From: Halogeometricum sp. S1BR25-6
GTDB lineage: Archaea > Halobacteriota > Halobacteria > Halobacteriales > Haloferacaceae
Assembly: GCF_031624495.1 (NCBI RefSeq)
Contig: NZ_JAMQOP010000002.1
Span: 744,001-808,000 of the forward strand
DNA length: 64,000 nucleotides
Reading direction: 5' to 3'
Below, piece by piece: positions 8,185-17,435 of this stretch; the first letter of the stretch is position 1; each line of letters starts with the position of its first letter. The notes under the pieces are model-generated. The model was not told where the DNA came from. It did not search any database and saw only the letters and a list, made by a program, of their open reading frames with translations. The translations under genes were made by a program, and so were the position numbers.

Positions 8185-8558
8185 GTGCGGTCCTCCCGCC
8201 GGACGCCTAAGGCTCTATCCTCTCGCCGACCGGCGGGTTTACCGAGGGTGATGACAGTCGGACTAAGCATAACGAACTATCAGGCGGGTTTGAATCGGAC
8301 GAACGCGCATCTATCTACTCAGAGAAGATACAAGCGAGTCACGTATCTGACTTAAGGCGACGAATCGTGGTAAAACAACGAACCGGGCATCAGTTCACCG
8401 ACATACATTTAACCACCAATGTTTTACAAGAAAAAAGCTGCTCCCGGCCGTTTCACCCGGGTTAGGACAAGATTTGCCTGTACCGGAGGACATTCGTTAG
8501 GTATTTATTCGGCCAGTTGGTGATTCTGGATATCCCTCGGCACAAGGTGTACTAACCT
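8185..8558. other. 374-bp AT-richer intergenic region before the peptide ABC operon
   Basis: No ORF with coding character is seen. The base composition drops clearly below the flanking genes, with several TATA-like stretches (ACATTTAAC near 8404-8412, TTTTACAAG near 8422, TATTTATT at 8502). It probably holds divergent promoters for trmY and the transporter operon, and any operator sites for the latter. Confidence 0.6.
8502..8509 (+). promoter_or_regulatory. Candidate TATA box of the peptide ABC operon
   Basis: TATTTATT lies 50 nt in front of the ATG at 8559, preceded by a BRE-like purine/C stretch. It would give a 5' leader of about 25 nt. Confidence 0.45.
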
Positions 8559-10253
8559 ATGTCAGACAAACACAAAACCTATCACAGCAAACTGAACCGT
8601 CGCCGCGTTCTGCAGGGACTCGGTGGCGTGGGTATCGCGGGTCTCGCCGGCTGCGCCGGCGGCTCCGGGAACGAGACGGAGGGCCAGAGCGGAACGGGCA
8701 CCGGCGGCGGGAGCGCCACGGAGGGCGAGAGCACGGACGGCGGAAGCTCCGGTTCCGGCGGCAGCCTCCGGATGGCGCTGGTCAAGAGCCCCATCGAGTT
8801 CGACCCCATCGTCCTCAACGACGTGCCGTCCTCGCAGGTCGTCGACCGGGTCGTCGAAGGGCTCTACACGTACGACGAGAGCACGGGCGTCGTGCCGCTC
8901 CTCGCCGACGGAGAACCGACCGTCGAGAACTCGGGACAGCGCTACACCGTGACGATTCAGGACGGGGCGACGTTCTCGAACGGCAACCCCGTCACTGCCA
9001 GCGACGTGAAGTACTCCTTCGAGGCGCCGGTCGAAGAGGAGACCGAGAACGCCTCGGAGGTGAACATGATCGACTCCATCACCGCGGTGGACGAGAAGAC
9101 GGTGCAGTTCGACCTGCAGTACCCCTACGCGCCGTTCAAGAACACGCTCACCTGGTACGTCGTCCCGCAGTCCGTCCGCGAGGAGGACAAGCAGGCGTTC
9201 AACACGGGCAGCGCGCTCACCGGGTCGGGTCCGTTCGTCTTCGAGGAGTGGCAGGAGGGTAACTTCGCCCGCCTGTCCGCCAACGAGGACTACTGGGGCG
9301 ACCCGAAGCCGAATCTCTCCGAGATAGAGTTCGTCCCCGTCGAGGAGGCGACCACCCGCGTCACGACCCTCAAGAACGGCGAGAACGACGTGGTCGAAGA
9401 GATTCCGCCGAAGCAGTACGCGACGGTCAAGAGCATCTCCGACGCCAGCATCAGCGAGGTGCCCGGAATCGGCTACTTCTACGCGGCGTTCAACTGCAAG
9501 GAGGGGCCGACGGCTGACCCCAAGGTCCGCGAGGGCATTGACTACGCCTTCGACATGGATTCGGCCGTCTCCAACTACGTCGAACCGACGGGCGTGCGCC
9601 AGTACAGCCCGTACCCCCTCTCCATCGCGGAGGACTGGGGCTTCCCCATCGAGGAGTGGAAGCAGATTCCGCACTCGAAGAACGTCGACCAGACGAAGAC
9701 GCTGTTCGACGAGGCCGGCGTGCCGGACGACTACTCGTTCAAGGTCATCGTTCCGCCGGACGACAAGCGCGAACAGATCGGCATCACCATCTCGAACGGC
9801 ATCAAGGAGGCCGGATGGGACGCGACCGTGCAGCGTCTCGACTGGGGCGCGTTCCTCAACAAGTACGTCTCCGGGAAGGAGGCCGACTACAACATCTACA
9901 CGCTCGGCTGGTCCGGCACCCCCGACCCCGACGCGTTCGCGTACTACCTGTTCGGTCGGACCGACGACACGCTCGGCGTGACGAACGGGACGTACTACGG
10001 CAACAACAGCGAGAGCGGAAAGCGGGTCGCCGAGAAGTTCCTCGAAGCCCGCCGCACGCCGGAACAGGAGGCGCGCAAGCAGCTCTACGTGGAGGCGACG
10101 ACGACGCTCCTCAACGACCGCGCGCACCTGCCGGCGTACAACCTCAAGAACAGCTTCGGCGTGAAGAACTACGTGAACGACTGGCACGCACACCCCGTGA
10201 GCAGCTTCACGCTAGCGACCGACTACAACAACGTCTCCGTCAGCGAGCAGTAG
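8559..10253 (+). CDS. Peptide/nickel-type ABC transporter substrate-binding lipoprotein
   Basis: This 564-residue family-5 solute-binding protein has a Tat signal (Arg14-16) and a lipobox ending in Cys32 (IAGLAGC), followed by a Gly/Ser/Glu-rich linker. The mature domain has the family pattern of SBP_bac_5: a strand-rich start (FDPIVLNDVPSS), YTVTIQDGATFSNG, and LTGSGPFVFEEW. It would deliver an oligopeptide, dipeptide or similar ligand to the permeases encoded just downstream. It is the first gene of a five-gene operon (binding protein, two permeases, two ATPases). The ligand cannot be read from sequence. Confidence 0.92.
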   Translation: MSDKHKTYHSKLNRRRVLQGLGGVGIAGLAGCAGGSGNETEGQSGTGTGGGSATEGESTDGGSSGSGGSLRMALVKSPIEFDPIVLNDVPSSQVVDRVVEGLYTYDESTGVVPLLADGEPTVENSGQRYTVTIQDGATFSNGNPVTASDVKYSFEAPVEEETENASEVNMIDSITAVDEKTVQFDLQYPYAPFKNTLTWYVVPQSVREEDKQAFNTGSALTGSGPFVFEEWQEGNFARLSANEDYWGDPKPNLSEIEFVPVEEATTRVTTLKNGENDVVEEIPPKQYATVKSISDASISEVPGIGYFYAAFNCKEGPTADPKVREGIDYAFDMDSAVSNYVEPTGVRQYSPYPLSIAEDWGFPIEEWKQIPHSKNVDQTKTLFDEAGVPDDYSFKVIVPPDDKREQIGITISNGIKEAGWDATVQRLDWGAFLNKYVSGKEADYNIYTLGWSGTPDPDAFAYYLFGRTDDTLGVTNGTYYGNNSESGKRVAEKFLEARRTPEQEARKQLYVEATTTLLNDRAHLPAYNLKNSFGVKNYVNDWHAHPVSSFTLATDYNNVSVSEQ

Positions 10254-10353
10254 AACGACACGACGGAGGCCGCGATGCCACATTTATGTACGCACCAACC
10301 ACAACCCGACGTTTAGAGACATACGTGACCGGAACGCGGGGAAGAAACTGACG

Positions 10354-11352
10354 ATGGGACGCCTCCGTTACACCATCAGCCGACTGCTCCAAGCGGTGCC
10401 GGTGATAGTCGGCGTGATCACCATCACGTTCTTCCTCACCGACGCGATTCCGGGCGACCCCGTACAGATCATGCTCGGCCCCTCGCCGAGCGCACAGCAG
10501 GCCGCCGCCATCCGCGCGAAGTACGGGCTGGACCGACCGCTCTACGTCCGGTACTTCAGCTACCTGTTCGACGTCATCCGACTCGACCTCGGAACGAGTA
10601 TCTACTACCAGGTGCCGGTCACGCAGAAAATCATGGAGCGCCTGCCGGTGACGCTGTACCTCCTGCTCGCCAGCTTCACGTTCGCGCTCGTGACCGCCGT
10701 TCCGCTCGGTATCATCTCGGCGAAGCGCCGCAACCAGCCGACGGACCACGTCTCTCGAGTCGTAGCGCTGTTCGGCGTCAGCACGCCCTCTTTCTGGATC
10801 GGGCTGATGCTCATCATCATCTTCTCGTTCTGGCTGGGGTGGCTGCCGTCGACGAACATCATCCTCCCGTGGACCGGACCCGCGAACGTGGACGGCGCGA
10901 GCAACCAACTCGACGTGATAATCAAATCGCTCCAGCATCTCGTCATGCCGATGATCACGCTCGGGACGCTCCAGATGGCGGCGTTCACCCGCATCGAGCG
11001 CTCCTCGATGCTCGAAGTGCTCGGCGAGGAGTACGTGAAGCTCGCGCGCGCCTACGGCGTCAGCGAGAGCAAAATCGTCCGCAAGCACGCCTTCCGGAAC
11101 GCGCAACTGCCGCTCATCACGCTCGTCGGCCTCCAACTGACGAGCGCGCTCGGCGGGGCGGTGCTGACGGAGACGGTCTTCTCCATCAACGGGATGGGCC
11201 GGCTCATCATCACGGCCGTACAGAATCAGGACTACCAACTCATCATGGGGACGACGCTCGTGTTCGGTCTCGTGTTCGTCATCGGCGTCATCATCACGGA
11301 CCTCTCGTACGCCTACGTCGACCCCCGAGTCTCCTTCGACGGGAGCGAGTAA
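10354..11352 (+). CDS. ABC transporter permease, DppB type
   Basis: This 332-residue protein is an inner-membrane permease of the DppB/OppB family. It has six predicted helices, the N-terminal segment AVPVIVGVITITFFL, and a cytoplasmic EAA loop around the segment LARAYGVSESKIVRKHAFRN. It starts at the ATG at 10354, 100 bp after the binding-protein gene. This spacer contains a TTTATG-like stretch and might carry a processing site or a weak internal promoter. It forms the translocation pore with the DppC-type permease that follows. Confidence 0.93.
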   Translation: MGRLRYTISRLLQAVPVIVGVITITFFLTDAIPGDPVQIMLGPSPSAQQAAAIRAKYGLDRPLYVRYFSYLFDVIRLDLGTSIYYQVPVTQKIMERLPVTLYLLLASFTFALVTAVPLGIISAKRRNQPTDHVSRVVALFGVSTPSFWIGLMLIIIFSFWLGWLPSTNIILPWTGPANVDGASNQLDVIIKSLQHLVMPMITLGTLQMAAFTRIERSSMLEVLGEEYVKLARAYGVSESKIVRKHAFRNAQLPLITLVGLQLTSALGGAVLTETVFSINGMGRLIITAVQNQDYQLIMGTTLVFGLVFVIGVIITDLSYAYVDPRVSFDGSE

Positions 11353-11355
11353 CTC

Positions 11356-12378
11356 ATGGCGACACAGACAGGAACCTCTCTCGACGCGGACGAAAGCGGC
11401 CCCGAACAGCCCGAGGCCCGAGTCGGATTGCGCTACACCCTCTCGCAGGTCAAGCGCGACCCGACGGCGCTCGTCGGGCTCGGAATCATCGTCTTCATGT
11501 GCGGCGTCGCGTTCATCGGATTCGTTGACGGCGTCCTCTTCGACTTCCTCGGCGACTTCGACGCCTTCGCCAACATGGGCGTCCACCAGTACGTGCTGGC
11601 GGAGACGTTCTGGGTCAACCCGGCGAACGACCCGAACAGCGCGCAGATACTCCGTCCGCCCGTCTACCTGACGAACCAGCTCTACCCGAACGAACCCGGC
11701 ACGTGGGCGCACCCGCTCGGCACCGACCACCGCGGGCGCGACATCCTCGTCCGCCTGTTCTACGGCACGCGCATCGCCATCACCGTCGGCATCGTCTCGA
11801 CGGGCATCGCGCTGGTGCTCGGAACGCTCGTCGGCGCCGTCGCCGGATACTACGGCGGCTGGATCGACGACGCCCTCATGCGCGGCTCCGAGACGCTGTA
11901 CGCCATCCCGTTTCTCATCCTCGTCATCGCGTTCATGACCGCGTTCGGGCAGAAACTGTCGTACGCGATGATCGGCGTCGGTATCGCCACCATCCCGACG
12001 TTCGCCCGCCTCATCCGCTCGCGCGTGCTCTCGGTGCGCGAGGAAGACTTCATCGAGGCCGCGCGCGCGGCCGGCGTCCGCGACCGCGACATCATCCTGC
12101 GGCACGTCGTCCCGAACAGCTTCGCGCCCGTGCTCGTGCAGGCGACGCTGCAGATCGGGGTCAACATCCTCATCATCGCCGGGCTGTCGTTCCTCGGCTA
12201 CGGCGCGCAGCCGCCGACGCCCTCGTGGGGACAGATGCTCTCGAACTCCCGACAGTACATGCTGCCGAACGCGTGGTTCAGCATCTGGCCGGGCATCGCT
12301 ATCCTGATCACCGTCGTCGGCTTCAACCTCATCGGCGACGGCCTGCGCGACGCACTCGACCCGCGGATAAACAACTGA
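11356..12378 (+). CDS. ABC transporter permease, DppC type
   Basis: This 340-residue partner permease has the DppC/OppC features: an N-terminal cytoplasmic region, the signature segment HPLGTDHRGRDILVRLFYG, and the EAA loop EAARAAGVRDRDIILRHVVPN truncated here to its core EAARAAGV. It starts 3 nt after the preceding permease stop, and its TGA overlaps the ATG of the next gene by one base, so the operon is translationally coupled. A long extracellular loop (about residues 55-115) is larger than in E. coli DppC. Confidence 0.93.
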   Translation: MATQTGTSLDADESGPEQPEARVGLRYTLSQVKRDPTALVGLGIIVFMCGVAFIGFVDGVLFDFLGDFDAFANMGVHQYVLAETFWVNPANDPNSAQILRPPVYLTNQLYPNEPGTWAHPLGTDHRGRDILVRLFYGTRIAITVGIVSTGIALVLGTLVGAVAGYYGGWIDDALMRGSETLYAIPFLILVIAFMTAFGQKLSYAMIGVGIATIPTFARLIRSRVLSVREEDFIEAARAAGVRDRDIILRHVVPNSFAPVLVQATLQIGVNILIIAGLSFLGYGAQPPTPSWGQMLSNSRQYMLPNAWFSIWPGIAILITVVGFNLIGDGLRDALDPRINN

Positions 12379-13493
12379 TGAGCGAACCAATACTCAAAGT
12401 CGAAAATCTGAAGACGCAGTTCTTCACCGAGGAAGGGACCGTCCGCGCGGTGGACGGCATCTCCTTCGAGGTGAACGAAGGCGAACTCGTCGGCCTCGTG
12501 GGCGAGTCCGGCGCGGGCAAGTCCGTGGCGACGAGTTCGATCATGCGGCTCGTGGAGGACCCCGGCGAAATCGTCGGCGGCACGGTGACGTACAAAGGTA
12601 AGAAACTCGTCGACTTCGAGGAGGGACCGGACGGCGAACTCCGACGCTCCTCGGAGATGCTGTCGAACGAGCAGATGCGCAAGCAGATCCGCGGCAAGGA
12701 AATCGCCATCATCTTCCAAGACCCGATGGAGGCGCTGAACCCCGTGTTCAAGGTCGGCGCGCAGCTTCGCGAGTTCATCGAGATAAACCGCGGCATGAGC
12801 GGGAAGGAGGCCAAGCGAATCGCCGTCGACATGCTCCGGGAGGTCGGCATCCCCGAACCCGAGAAGCGCTACGAGAGCTATCCGCACCAGTTCTCCGGCG
12901 GGATGCGCCAGCGCGTCATCATCGCGATGGCGCTGGCGTGCGAACCCGACCTCATCATCGCCGACGAACCGACGACGGCGCTGGACGTGACCGTCGAGGG
13001 ACAGATTCTGGACCTCGTCGAGGACCTCCGGCAGAAGTACGACACCTCCTTCGTCTGGGTCACGCACGACCTCGGCGTCGTCGCGGAGATATGCGACCGC
13101 GTGAACGTGATGTACCTCGGCGAGATAATCGAGCAGGCGGACGTGGACGACCTGTTCCACAAGACGCGGCACCCGTACACCGAGGCGCTGTTGAACTCCA
13201 TCCCGCGACCCGACCAGTCGGTCGACGAACTGAACCCCATCAAGGGCGTGATGCCCGAGGCTATCAACCCGCCGTCGGGGTGTCGGTTCCACACTCGCTG
13301 TCCGGACGCGCGGACCGTCTGCAAGGAGGTCCATCCCGCCTATCAGGACGTCAGCGACCCGGACGAGGCGAGACACATGGTCTCCTGCGTGAAGTACGAG
13401 AACGTCGGCTACGACGACGCCGAACCTCTCGAAACGGAGGCGACCGGCGCGTTCGGCAGCGGCCTCGTCGAGGCTCGGGGTGAGAGCCAATGA
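12378..13493 (+). CDS. Peptide ABC transporter ATP-binding protein, DppD type
   Basis: I start this 371-residue ATPase at the ATG at 12378, which overlaps the preceding stop (TGATG). Walker A is GESGAGKS, the signature is FSGGMRQR and Walker B is [12 protein letters not shown]. The C-terminal oligopeptide-transporter extension has four cysteines ([15 protein letters not shown] and a later VSC) that in this family form an iron-sulfur or metal site. An insert of about 25 residues after the first strand-helix unit (the [13 protein letters not shown] region) is common in haloarchaeal members. The stop overlaps the next gene by 4 nt (ATGA). Confidence 0.93.
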
Positions 13494-14782
13494 GTCAGGG
13501 AATGGTCACCGGAAGCGACGACGATATCGACTTCGGCGAGACGCTCCTCCGCGTGGAGGGACTCACCAAGTACTTCAGTCAGGGCAGCGGCCTCATCGCC
13601 AGCCTGTTCAACGACGAGGAGGTGAAAGCGGTCGACGACGTCTCCTTCGACATCGCGAAGGGCGAGACGCTGGGACTCGTCGGCGAGTCCGGGTGCGGGA
13701 AGTCGACGCTCGCGCGGACGGTGCTTCGCCTGCTCGAACCGACCGACGGCGCGGTGTGGTTCAAGGGAGACAACCTCGCGGAGATGAGCGGCGAGGAACT
13801 CCGCTCGATGCGCGAGAACATCCAGATGATCTTCCAGGACCCCCAGTCCTCCTTGGACCCGCGGATGAAAGTCGGCCCCATCGTCGAGGAACCGATGAAG
13901 GCGCACGGACTGTACGGGGGCGAACGCGAGCAACGGGCGCGGATGCTGTTGGAGAAGGTCGGCCTCGACCCCCAGCACTACAACCGCTACCCCCACCAGT
14001 TCTCCGGCGGGCAGCGACAGCGGGTCAACCTCGCCCGCGCGCTGGCGGTCAACCCCGACTTCATCGTCTGCGACGAACCCACTTCGGCGCTCGACGCCTC
14101 CATCCAGGCGCAGGTGCTGAACACGATGCGGGACCTACAGGATGAGTTCGGGCTGACCTACCTGTTCATCAGCCACGACCTGAGCGTCATCCGCCACATC
14201 TCCGACCGCGTGGCCGTGATGTACCTCGGACAGTTGGTCGAACTGGCGGAGACCGAGGAACTGTTCGAGCGCCCGCAACACCCCTACACGGAGGCGCTCT
14301 TGCAGTCGATTCCGGTGCCCGACCCGCGGGCGAGCGGTCAACGGGGCGTGCTCGAAGGCGACGTCCCCTCGCCCATCGACCCGCCCTCGGGCTGTCGGTT
14401 CCGAACGCGCTGTCCGCGACTCATCGCTCCCGAGGAGTACGACTTCTCGGCGACGGAGTGGGAACGCGTGCGGGCGTTCATGCGCGAGACCCAGCGCCGC
14501 ACGTTCGAGGCCGACGGCGAGGCGTCGCTCCGCAACGAGTTCTTCCCGGACGGAACGCCCGAAGGCGAGGCCGGGTCGCTCGTGGAGCAGAGCATCGACG
14601 AGGTGCTGAACGACGACTGGGACGCCGCCGAGGAGCGACTCACGGGGGCGTTCGCCGAAGAGAGCATCTGCGCGCAGGAGATTCCCTCCTACGAGGTCGA
14701 ACCGGTCCACGGCGACGGCGTCCACTTCGCCGCCTGCCACCTCCACAACGACGACGTGCGGGGCAGCGTCGACGCCGACTGA
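13490..14782 (+). CDS. Peptide ABC transporter ATP-binding protein, DppF type, with C-terminal insert
   Basis: This 430-residue ATPase has Walker A GESGCGKS, signature FSGGQRQR and Walker [13 protein letters not shown]. It is about 100 residues longer than E. coli DppF. The extra length lies inside the cysteine-containing C-terminal extension: GCRFRTRCP is followed by an acidic segment of about 90 residues ([13 protein letters not shown] to GDGVHF) before the final AACHL. The start is the ATG of the ATGA overlap with the DppD gene. It completes the ABC importer as the second nucleotide-binding subunit. Confidence 0.92.
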
Positions 14783-15341: not shown

Positions 15342-15452
15342 CCGTCGCCCTGGGTTGTCGCGCGCGGCGTTTACCTCCGTCGGTCGTCCGGTCGTCCGGT
15401 CGTCCGGCCGTCCGGCGCGAGGGGTTATGCCCTCCCGCCCCCGACCGTCCGC

Positions 15453-16037
15453 ATGGACCGACGCGAACTCCTCGCGTTCGCCGGCCTCTGCGGTCTCGGG
15501 GCGACGAGCGGGTGTCTCGGATACACCGTCGTCGAACGGGACGCCGTGACCGACCGCCGCGTCCGCATCGCCGAGTTGGAGGCGAAACTGCGGGCGCGGG
15601 AGGAAGAGATGGCGTCGCTGCGCGCCGAACTCGACGCGCTCCGGGACCGAATAGCGGGGCCGGAGGTGAACCTCGTCCGGGCCGTCGAATCGTGGTCGCG
15701 CGCCGGGGACGTGGTGACGGAACAGACCGACCGCGTGGCGGGCGAGACGCTCACCGCGGCGGTGAGCTACGACTACCCGGTTCACCCGGCCGCCGGCGGG
15801 ACGGGTCGCGCCGACGCGACCGTGCGGGTCGAACTGCGGCGCGGCGACGACGTCGTCCGCGAGGCGGAGACGCGGGTCCGCATCACCCTCGACCGGGACC
15901 AGACGCTCGCGGAGAGTCCGCTCGAACTGGCCGTCTCGGACCTCGACGCCGGGGAGTACGCGCTGGCGGCGCGCGTCGTCGACAACGTGAGCGGCCTGAC
16001 GTCGCCGACGGCCGAGACGACGGTCGAACTCGGCTGA
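15453..16037 (+). CDS. Predicted lipoprotein with coiled coil, unknown function
   Basis: The 194-residue product starts MDRRELLAFAGL and has a short hydrophobic signal ending in the lipobox ATSGC (Cys at about residue 20), so it should be lipid-anchored outside the membrane. Residues about 30-70 form a heptad-rich coiled coil (IAELEAKLRAREEEMASLRA core). The C-terminal 110 residues are a strand-rich domain with regular TVRVELRRGDD and YALAARVVDN strands. I do not recognise a characterised family. Confidence 0.75.
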   Translation: MDRRELLAFAGLCGLGATSGCLGYTVVERDAVTDRRVRIAELEAKLRAREEEMASLRAELDALRDRIAGPEVNLVRAVESWSRAGDVVTEQTDRVAGETLTAAVSYDYPVHPAAGGTGRADATVRVELRRGDDVVREAETRVRITLDRDQTLAESPLELAVSDLDAGEYALAARVVDNVSGLTSPTAETTVELG

Positions 16038-16073: not shown

Positions 16074-17435
16074 TCACTCGCGGCGTCGGCGGAGCGCGTA
16101 CGCCGAGAGGGCCGCGCCGCCGGCGGCGCCGGCGAGAAGGTTGGGTACGTCGACGGCTCGACGGACGCGCGACGGCGAGAGCGTCGCGCGTTCGCGAAGC
16201 GCCCCCTCCTCCTCGGCACTCTCGGGGACGGAGGCGACGTACTCGCGCACCTCGCCGGGAGCGATGTGGGCGGTCACGGCGTCGTCCAGGAGCGACCCGT
16301 CGAGTCCGGCGGCCTCGGCGGTCAACTCGTACGTCGCCGCCCGCTTGCCGACGACGGAGACGCGGTAGTCGCCGGCGGGCGCGTCGTAGCGGTAGCGCGT
16401 GCCGTACACGTCCCCCCGACTCCGGTCCATCATCTCGGCGCGGTTGCGCCCCACGGCCGTCCCGTCGGGAGCGACGACGGAGAGGCCGACGTTCGGCGAG
16501 GAGACGGTGAAGCGGACGGCGCGTTCGAGCAGGTGCGAGAAGTCCCCGTCGTCGGTCCGTCGAGGGGCGGTCACGTCGGCGTCGGCGCGGATGGCCCGGT
16601 CCCAACGGTTGAACACGAGGCTGTCGAACTCGGCGTGGTTCGCGAGCGGTCTGTCCGCGTTCGGAACCACCTTCAGCCGTCGGCGGTACCGCGGGCGGTA
16701 GGACTTCGCCGGGACGTTCGGGTTGTAGACGTCGAGCAGCGTCGCGTCCCCCCGTTCGGCGTAATCGTAGACGAGCACTTGGTGGGACAGGCGCGTGGCG
16801 GTGTCGACGAGCGTCACGCCCGCCGTCCCGAAGGCGTCCACCGTCGCGGTCAGCGCCGCGAGTTCGGCGGCGTGGTCTATCTTCTGCGGGCGGAGCATCC
16901 GACGCCGACCCAACCACGAGTGCACGTCGAGCAACTGCGTCGACTGGTACTCGTCGATGCGGGTACCGACGGTGCCGCCCTCCCCGCGGGGCACCTCCGG
17001 CGTCCGGAGTTCGGCGGCGTGCTCGACCGAATCGGGGAGCGCGTTCGGGTCCTCGAAGAACTCCTGCGCGGCGAACGTCATGCCGTAGCAGTGGCCATCC
17101 GTCGAAGACAACTGCGCGGCGGCGACGCGAATCTGCGAGGCGACGAGGCCGACGAGGGCGTCCGGCAGGCGGGCGACGGGCGTGCCGAACAGGTCGGCGA
17201 ACGGCCCCTGCCAGTCGAGGCGGACGCACTCTCGGACCTCCTCGTCGGCCAGTCTGCGGTGGTCGTGGCCGGGGTAGGCCCGTTCGCTCCCCCGCCAGTT
17301 TCGGAACCCGAACCCGTGGACGGAGGGGTCGAACCCCTCCCGGGGGTCGGCGGCCGCGACGCCGGGCGCCGCGGCGAGACCGACCGCCCCCGCGCCGACG
17401 GACGCGAGGAACCGCCGCCGTCCCATCTTCGTCAT
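16074..17435 (-). CDS. Tat-exported, C-terminally anchored protein with papain-like Cys/His motifs
   Basis: This 453-residue protein has a twin-arginine signal (GRRRFLASVGAG) and a C-terminal hydrophobic helix followed by an Arg/Glu-rich tail, the layout of a surface protein held by its C-terminus. Inside are motifs of a papain-fold cysteine peptidase: DGHCYGMTFA (Cys116), LSHQVLVYDY (His218) and LLDVYNPN (Asp235/Asn240 region). The second half (residues about 290-400) looks like a beta-sandwich. A peptidase or related cysteine hydrolase is inferred from motif order only. It is monocistronic, converging on the lipoprotein gene. Confidence 0.65.
   Translation of the reverse strand: MTKMGRRRFLASVGAGAVGLAAAPGVAAADPREGFDPSVHGFGFRNWRGSERAYPGHDHRRLADEEVRECVRLDWQGPFADLFGTPVARLPDALVGLVASQIRVAAAQLSSTDGHCYGMTFAAQEFFEDPNALPDSVEHAAELRTPEVPRGEGGTVGTRIDEYQSTQLLDVHSWLGRRRMLRPQKIDHAAELAALTATVDAFGTAGVTLVDTATRLSHQVLVYDYAERGDATLLDVYNPNVPAKSYRPRYRRRLKVVPNADRPLANHAEFDSLVFNRWDRAIRADADVTAPRRTDDGDFSHLLERAVRFTVSSPNVGLSVVAPDGTAVGRNRAEMMDRSRGDVYGTRYRYDAPAGDYRVSVVGKRAATYELTAEAAGLDGSLLDDAVTAHIAPGEVREYVASVPESAEEEGALRERATLSPSRVRRAVDVPNLLAGAAGGAALSAYALRRRRE

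Follow-up and report, generated by a model that had tools for sequence, protein, structure and literature searches.

A predicted papain-fold protein with a Tat-type signal in Halogeometricum and its relatives in archaea and bacteria

The gene, its product and its surroundings

The window, i.e. the whole 64,000-nucleotide stretch of Halogeometricum sp. S1BR25-6 DNA that was analysed, carries on its reverse strand a reading frame which starts with ATG, is open throughout and encodes a protein of 453 aa (Table 1). Given its full-length homologues, we regard this frame as a real gene. The protein is composed of a Tat-type signal, a domain of ~260 residues, a second domain of ~110 residues and a short Gly/Ala-rich helix, and ends in RRRRE. 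Its N-terminus, MTKMGRRRFLASVGAG, bears out the Tat signal proposed in a first-pass annotation: RRRFL stands near the start, and 35 of the 45 aligned sequences contain the pattern RRx[FLIVAM][LIVFM], the ten without it including three C-terminal domains of long proteins and others that are trimmed at the N-terminus. The signal region (residues 1-29) has pLDDT below 50 in the AlphaFold model. The same annotation placed a membrane helix with a charged tail at the C-terminus. A helix and a basic tail are indeed present, but the helix is weakly hydrophobic, its best 17-residue Kyte-Doolittle mean being 1.24. Because of this and of its pLDDT, which is below 50 in the window model, a C-terminal membrane anchor is plausible but uncertain. 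Among the members of at least 400 aa, 30 of 31 have a C-terminal segment scoring 0.99-1.87 on the same scale (L021 has none), and in nine of the 31 the score is at least 1.6. Members of ~300 aa (L033-L040, L045-L047) have neither the beta-sandwich nor the C-terminal tail; some of them begin with RRxLLCG, which may serve as a membrane or lipid anchor at the N-terminus.

Table 1. Features of the window and of related loci
Feature	Position	Strand	Basis
Whole gene, predicted exported papain-fold protein, 453 aa	16074..17435	-	ORF and full-length homologues
Tat-type signal peptide, ~residues 1-30 (RRRFL, A-rich, AAA-D)	17346..17435	-	sequence; homologue pattern; pLDDT
Predicted papain-fold catalytic domain, residues 30-290	16566..17348	-	pLDDT; structural rows spanning 29-288; alignments
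Motif F35-x-P37...G41-F42-x-F44-x-N46, domain start	17298..17333	-	F35, P37, F44 and N46 in 45/45
Cys116, predicted nucleophile, first residue of helix 116-128	17088..17090	-	conserved in 45/45; DSSP of model
His218, predicted base, on strand 216-228	16782..16784	-	conserved in 45/45; DSSP of model
Asn238 (Asp in most relatives), predicted third residue, after strand 231-237	16722..16724	-	D 38/N 7; DSSP
C-terminal beta-sandwich, ~residues 300-410	16206..16538	-	strands between 306 and 403 (model)
Short C-terminal hydrophobic helix and RRRRE tail, possible membrane anchor	16077..16139	-	Kyte-Doolittle
Oligopeptide/dipeptide ABC transporter operon (SBP_bac_5, two BPD_transp_1 permeases, two oligo_HPY ATPases)	8556..14782	+	Pfam
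Lectin-bearing relatives	L049:3474-6818, L054:4965-6056, L079:4635-6197, L080:4791-6182, L041:4457-7564		papain-fold domain joined to beta-propeller lectin, B_lectin, MIR or H_lectin modules

The oligopeptide transporter operon converges on the gene from its downstream side, leaving a gap of ~1.3 kb that contains the ORF 15437-16037. This small ORF (forward strand) has a lipobox-like start, GLGATSGCLG, and no Pfam match. Upstream of the gene are a short-chain dehydrogenase and an ABC-2 transporter. Besides the window, seven of the 40 context loci (L098-L102, L107, L112) have an oligopeptide transporter close to the gene, with gaps of ~0.65-1.3 kb in the converging cases. None was seen beside the gene in 33 of the 41 loci, where for L119-L138 the transporter was sought via an ABC ATPase cluster alone, with genes from a simple caller that missed the homologue itself in L106, L110 and L112. 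L112 comes from another family; here the frame of a 36% identical homologue lies ~90 nt 3' of an oligopeptide transporter operon of the same direction (L112:7498-14895); part by part, this operon shares just 26-57% identity with its window counterpart. A single conserved gene order seems to account for L098-L102 and L107, so the number of independent transporter arrangements is only two. As to how often such proximity might be expected, oligo_HPY matches in 31 genomes number 2-24 each (409 in total, ~13 each), which at two ATPases per operon gives ~6-7 operons, so that on a rough estimate a random gene would flank one in at most ~1% of cases. The neighbourhood supports a link with peptide uptake without settling it. 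In two genera, the gene faces a different, converging ABC protein (584-648 aa, judged by size and look to be of exporter type), the gaps being 28-68 nt in one genus and 618 and 632 nt in the other (L103, L104, L119, L105, L117).

Conserved residues and the predicted fold

The main alignment comprises 45 sequences from the haloarchaeal search, the window protein included, and is free of pattern-search bias. Dropped from the haloarchaeal hits were L001 (the window itself), L044 (a match to the signal region only), L010 (split over two frames) and L048 (a short G398 match); G373, G216 and G269 are not among the counted sequences, the first two having been used for context. Only 12 columns are invariant in all 45 sequences, namely, F35, P37, F44, N46, G114, C116, G118, H218, L221, Y237, P239 and N240. 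The first-pass annotation had picked out Cys116, His218 and the Asp/Asn of VYNPN, and each is found where it was claimed to be, in the contexts GHCYGM, LSHQV and Y237-N238-P239-N240. Variation in orthologues had been named as evidence against the assignment; the Cys and the His are constant (45/45), and the third residue is either D (38/45) or N (7/45, the window protein among them). With so few invariant columns, the invariance of Cys, His and Y-x-P-N is far from what would be expected by chance. D and N are both papain-type third residues, Asn being the residue of papain itself. The replacement of Asp238 by Asn in the window protein and six other sequences might be taken to indicate an inactive papain-fold protein with a purely binding role. 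We consider this very improbable, since Asn is papain's own residue and both Cys and His are retained in all 45 sequences, as would be unexpected had activity been lost.

Conservation extends beyond the haloarchaeal sequences. Cys, His and the Asp/Asn third residue are also kept in a bacterial-type set of 39 sequences (39 of the 44 loci found, without L070, L076, L082, L089 and L095). His218 is invariant there, but its conservation, like that of N46, is partly built in because the search patterns contained HGF..NS and NHQVLAY. This set and the main alignment have just two sequences in common (L041 = L071, L043 = L072). In a mixed set of 44 sequences, chosen as 24 of the 45 main-alignment sequences, 18 of the 39 bacterial-type ones, L049 and L053, Cys, His and N46 are invariant and the Asp/Asn column is at least 90% one residue. 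A further alignment leaves out L051, L052, L042, L070-L072 (copies of L042, L041 and L043), L076 and L089 (fragment or split frames). By eye, Cys, His and Asp are all present in seven further domains that come from the same archaeal phylum but from other classes.

The AlphaFold model of the window protein, made with the 45-sequence alignment, has a mean pLDDT of 80.2; for residues 31-280 the means of 10-residue blocks are 81-96, except for 70 at residues 51-60. The model of the core domain of a Neobacillus homologue, made with 39 family sequences, reaches a pLDDT of 90.4 and a pTM of 0.89. Here Cys49 opens helix 49-61, His165 is in strand 165-175 and Asp185 follows strand 178-184, just as the corresponding residues of the window protein are placed (Table 1). 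In both predicted models the Cys-His-Asp/Asn layout is that of the papain superfamily, in agreement with the papain-like order which the first-pass annotation had read from the sequence; the residues fall on papain-type secondary-structure elements.

That annotation also suggested a fold search. Foldseek by itself gave no match at E ≤0.001 against the PDB for either model, and none at E 0.001 against viral structures; after structural re-alignment, the listed rows are dominated by papain-fold cysteine peptidases. For the window model, re-alignment of Foldseek's 1000 best chains gave IdeS at Z 7.2 (164 aligned, 4.3 Å), a value in the range below 8 that, as the aligner cautions, may reflect merely a common arrangement. 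CdiA-CT toxin came second, and other rows were phytochelatin synthase (Z 6.8), AvrPphB, cathepsins and a C39 peptidase domain. Two rows of DUF4425 chains (Z 5.5-5.6; 4qey_D with Z 5.6, 92 aligned, 3.3 Å) align to the C-terminal domain. We take all the remaining rows to be papain-fold entries, two CtaG rows being presumably papain-like. For the Neobacillus core, 48 of the 50 listed rows are papain-type or papain-fold by title. The top row is a Bacteroides type VI secretion effector domain, BtaeB-CTD (Z 9.7, 162 aligned, 4.2 Å); TDE_0362 (Z 7.2) is the other row without a papain-type title. Below the top row, staphopain has Z 8.1 (143 aligned, 3.8 Å), and interpain, SpeB and IdeS are listed as well. 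The case for a papain fold, built on predictions, draws its weight from three observations: these structural rows agree with one another, Cys, His and Asp/Asn are laid out as in papain-like enzymes, and the three residues are conserved.

Family placement, distribution and domain partners

The first-pass annotation could not match the protein to any named family, and neither could we. The window protein has zero Pfam matches at E up to 10, Peptidase_C1, C39_2, BtrH_N and transglutaminase included, and is unmatched in NCBIfam and PADLOC. PDB sequence searches with it and its homologues returned nothing or matches at chance level, and PHROGs gave one weak match (E 0.04) to a family of unknown function. 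As for the homologues, 4 of 39 core domains weakly match BtrH_N (best E 0.0028), the commonest of the weak Pfam matches, and one of 39 weakly matches Peptidase_C39_2 (E 0.00019); DUF1639, a family without a papain link, reaches E 0.0079 in a single homologue, near the level of BtrH_N. We therefore rejected membership in Peptidase_C39_2 or BtrH_N, as the window protein is unmatched and the two bit scores obtained for homologues are below the curated cut-offs: 21.8 bits against 24 for Peptidase_C39_2 in the C-terminal part of a bacterial homologue (L093), and 12.4 bits against 29.7 for BtrH_N in L043. Neither domain was found in the window's genome; in 20 related genomes, C39_2 is found in none and BtrH_N in one, with a stop within the match. 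This last match (L118) has one internal TGA.

Other assignments fared no better. The papain family C1A (Peptidase_C1) was rejected: it has no Pfam match here, and position 110, six before the Cys, is A in 16 sequences, F in 11, S in 10, V in 3, D in 3 and T in 2, so that papain's oxyanion Gln is found there in 0 of 45. The third residue (D 38/N 7 of 45) likewise speaks against NlpC/P60, where, according to a survey of papain-like families, it is His (PMC10318531). For a transglutaminase core there is no Pfam match in the window protein, and the fold search is compatible with either outcome. The most fitting place for the window protein is a new family, as yet unnamed, within the papain-like superfamily. 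We noticed no such family in the sections consulted of the same survey (PMC10318531), and our searches of an open-access library turned up no account of it. The fold and chemistry are known ones; the family is new and its setting unusual. It is common enough in bacteria and archaea to deserve a domain entry of its own, which would give a name to proteins that are now hypothetical.

The weak matches bear on the kind of reaction. A papain-fold transferase or cross-linker of the transglutaminase or acyltransferase type, in which the acyl group on the Cys would go to an amine of a surface glycoprotein or lipid rather than to water, would fit with BtrH_N, an acyltransferase domain, being the commonest weak Pfam match, and with the presence among the top rows of the window model of phytochelatin synthase, which is a transpeptidase. 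Nevertheless, the best named rows of the core model are endopeptidases (staphopain, SpeB, interpain, IdeS), the window protein itself has no Pfam match, and no acyl-carrier or acyl-transfer gene was seen among the 10 neighbouring ORFs scanned. A transferase is, in our judgement, rather unlikely.

The family profile has no second match in the window's genome at E up to 1, i.e. the gene is single copy there. Of 60 related genomes, 10 contain a match, as do 49 of the 391 genomes searched from the class; the two sets overlap and include the window's own genome, and a few of the matches are short. Several Halobaculum homologues sit on plasmid records. In three haloarchaeal loci (L041-L043), the homologous domain is the C-terminal part of ORFs of ~1040 aa, two of which have an H-type lectin match above the cut-off, and relatives were traced from these loci to Paraburkholderia and Microvirga plasmids. 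Beyond what the first-pass annotation had foreseen, the family proved to be widespread in bacteria and partly joined to lectin-type modules. A scan of the genome_contigs set yielded 42 family loci from 145 pattern-matching stretches, coming from Paenibacillus, Neobacillus, Streptosporangiaceae, Rubrobacter, Frankia, Gemmataceae, Chloroflexi, Acidobacteria, cyanobacteria, Bacteroidetes and others. A profile of four such homologues, with the window excluded, recovers the window protein with E = 5.5e-13 in a small ORF database. Within the archaeal phylum, a profile search of 246 genomes gave matches in nine, seven of them outside the class. The domains in these other classes (L149-L155) occur in ORFs of 270 aa to more than 2000 aa; one of 1376 aa (L149) contains CARDB and DUF11 repeats besides the papain-fold domain. 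Searched with the window protein, the viral_contigs set gave no relative. Searched with the bacterial type of the domain, it gave two IMG/VR contigs (L096, L097), which encode this type in ORFs of 448 aa, perhaps on prophages; in phage records, no bacterial-type domain was found.

The domain partners were surveyed in 44 ORFs. Pfam at E ≤0.01 gave B_lectin in five, MIR in three, H_lectin in three and DUF346 in one, and NCBIfam a putidacin-type lectin in five and a beta-propeller lectin in one. Matches above the curated cut-off include MIR in L079 and L080 and H_lectin in L041; below it are B_lectin in L054 and L079, H_lectin in L043 and the putidacin model in L054. One protein (L079) carries both B_lectin and MIR. 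Most of the 44 ORFs have no lectin match, nor has the window protein; the longer haloarchaeal proteins have the beta-sandwich and the short hydrophobic tail in place of lectin modules. These lectin-type matches, some of them below cut-offs, could point to antagonism: a secreted cysteine peptidase would be directed against other cells by its lectin or other binding modules, in the manner of chimerolectins and polymorphic toxins. The plasmid location of several Halobaculum homologues would agree with this, as would the type VI effector domain and the CdiA-CT toxin among the leading structural rows. Against such a role, the window gene is single copy, its order is kept in the genus, the protein is devoid of a lectin match, and the scan of 10 neighbouring ORFs revealed nothing recognisable as an immunity gene. 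We regard antagonism as an unlikely function.

Proposed function and comparison with known systems

The window protein is probably a cysteine peptidase that is exported and represents a new papain-like family; its activity and substrate are inferred. Papain folds include transferases and amidases as well, and hence the fold alone is no proof of peptidase activity; peptide bonds are the presumed substrate because the nearest folds are peptidases and a peptide importer lies nearby. Judging from its RR signal, the folded protein would leave the cell via the Tat route, and the C-terminal helix would probably hold it at the cell surface. Conservation and fold suggest that Cys116 attacks the peptide bond to form an acyl-enzyme, with His218 acting as the base and Asn238 orienting it. 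The beta-sandwich probably binds substrate or surface, by comparison with the lectin-type modules of some bacterial relatives and with Cwp84. The likely job of the enzyme would be the cutting of proteins or peptides outside the cell, and in the window's lineage the released peptides may enter through the nearby oligopeptide transporter.

A broader reading, which we put forward tentatively, is that of a separate extracellular papain-fold peptidase family serving as a portable cutting head on varied sugar- or surface-binding modules (mannose-lectin type, H-type lectin, MIR, beta-propeller lectin, and beta-sandwich with membrane tail). In haloarchaea this might be a surface-tethered glycoprotein peptidase with S-layer or foreign targets, and such a portable-head family might, equally tentatively, be common to bacteria, haloarchaea and other classes of their phylum. 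The pairings with lectin-type modules suggest a testable idea, namely, peptidases aimed at glycoproteins. Among the secreted proteases of haloarchaea, those studied in depth are the halolysins, which are serine proteases. In a review of membrane-localised proteases of Haloferax volcanii, the word 'papain' was not found (PMC9263693). If the proposal is correct, it would be unusual in that setting to find an exported peptidase of papain type whose free thiol stays active at molar salt.

Among known systems, BtrH_N and Peptidase_C39_2 are approached by weak matches in a few homologues, those of L043 and L093 covering the C-terminal part of the respective profile. Staphopain, SpeB/interpain and IdeS, which belong to MEROPS families C47, C10 and C66, respectively, share with the window protein the predicted papain fold and the Cys-His-Asp/Asn order. 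They are the best named rows of the family core, IdeS also of the window model. In contrast to this structural likeness, there is no significant PDB sequence match to them, and the haloarchaeal branch adds the beta-sandwich and the tail. The stretch from N46 to Cys116 is helical and 70 residues long in the haloarchaeal branch, whereas it has 27 residues in the bacterial core.

Cwp84 of Clostridioides difficile is reported to be a surface C1A peptidase of papain fold followed by a calcium-binding, lectin-like beta-sandwich, and to take part in S-layer maturation (PMC4089489). The window protein, likewise, is predicted to have a surface papain fold and then a beta-sandwich, and in both the order is Cys-His-Asn. 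However, Cwp84 has a propeptide, repeats that bind the cell wall and, six positions ahead of its Cys, a Gln; the window protein shows no recognisable counterpart of these. A second parallel is Marasmius oreades agglutinin (MOA). Unlike the window protein, in which no lectin is recognised, it is fungal, and no homology to it was found in our searches. MOA is a chimerolectin in which a lectin is joined to a papain-like protease domain, as in some of the bacterial relatives, and it shows that a lectin combined with a papain fold is a working design (PMC8244254).
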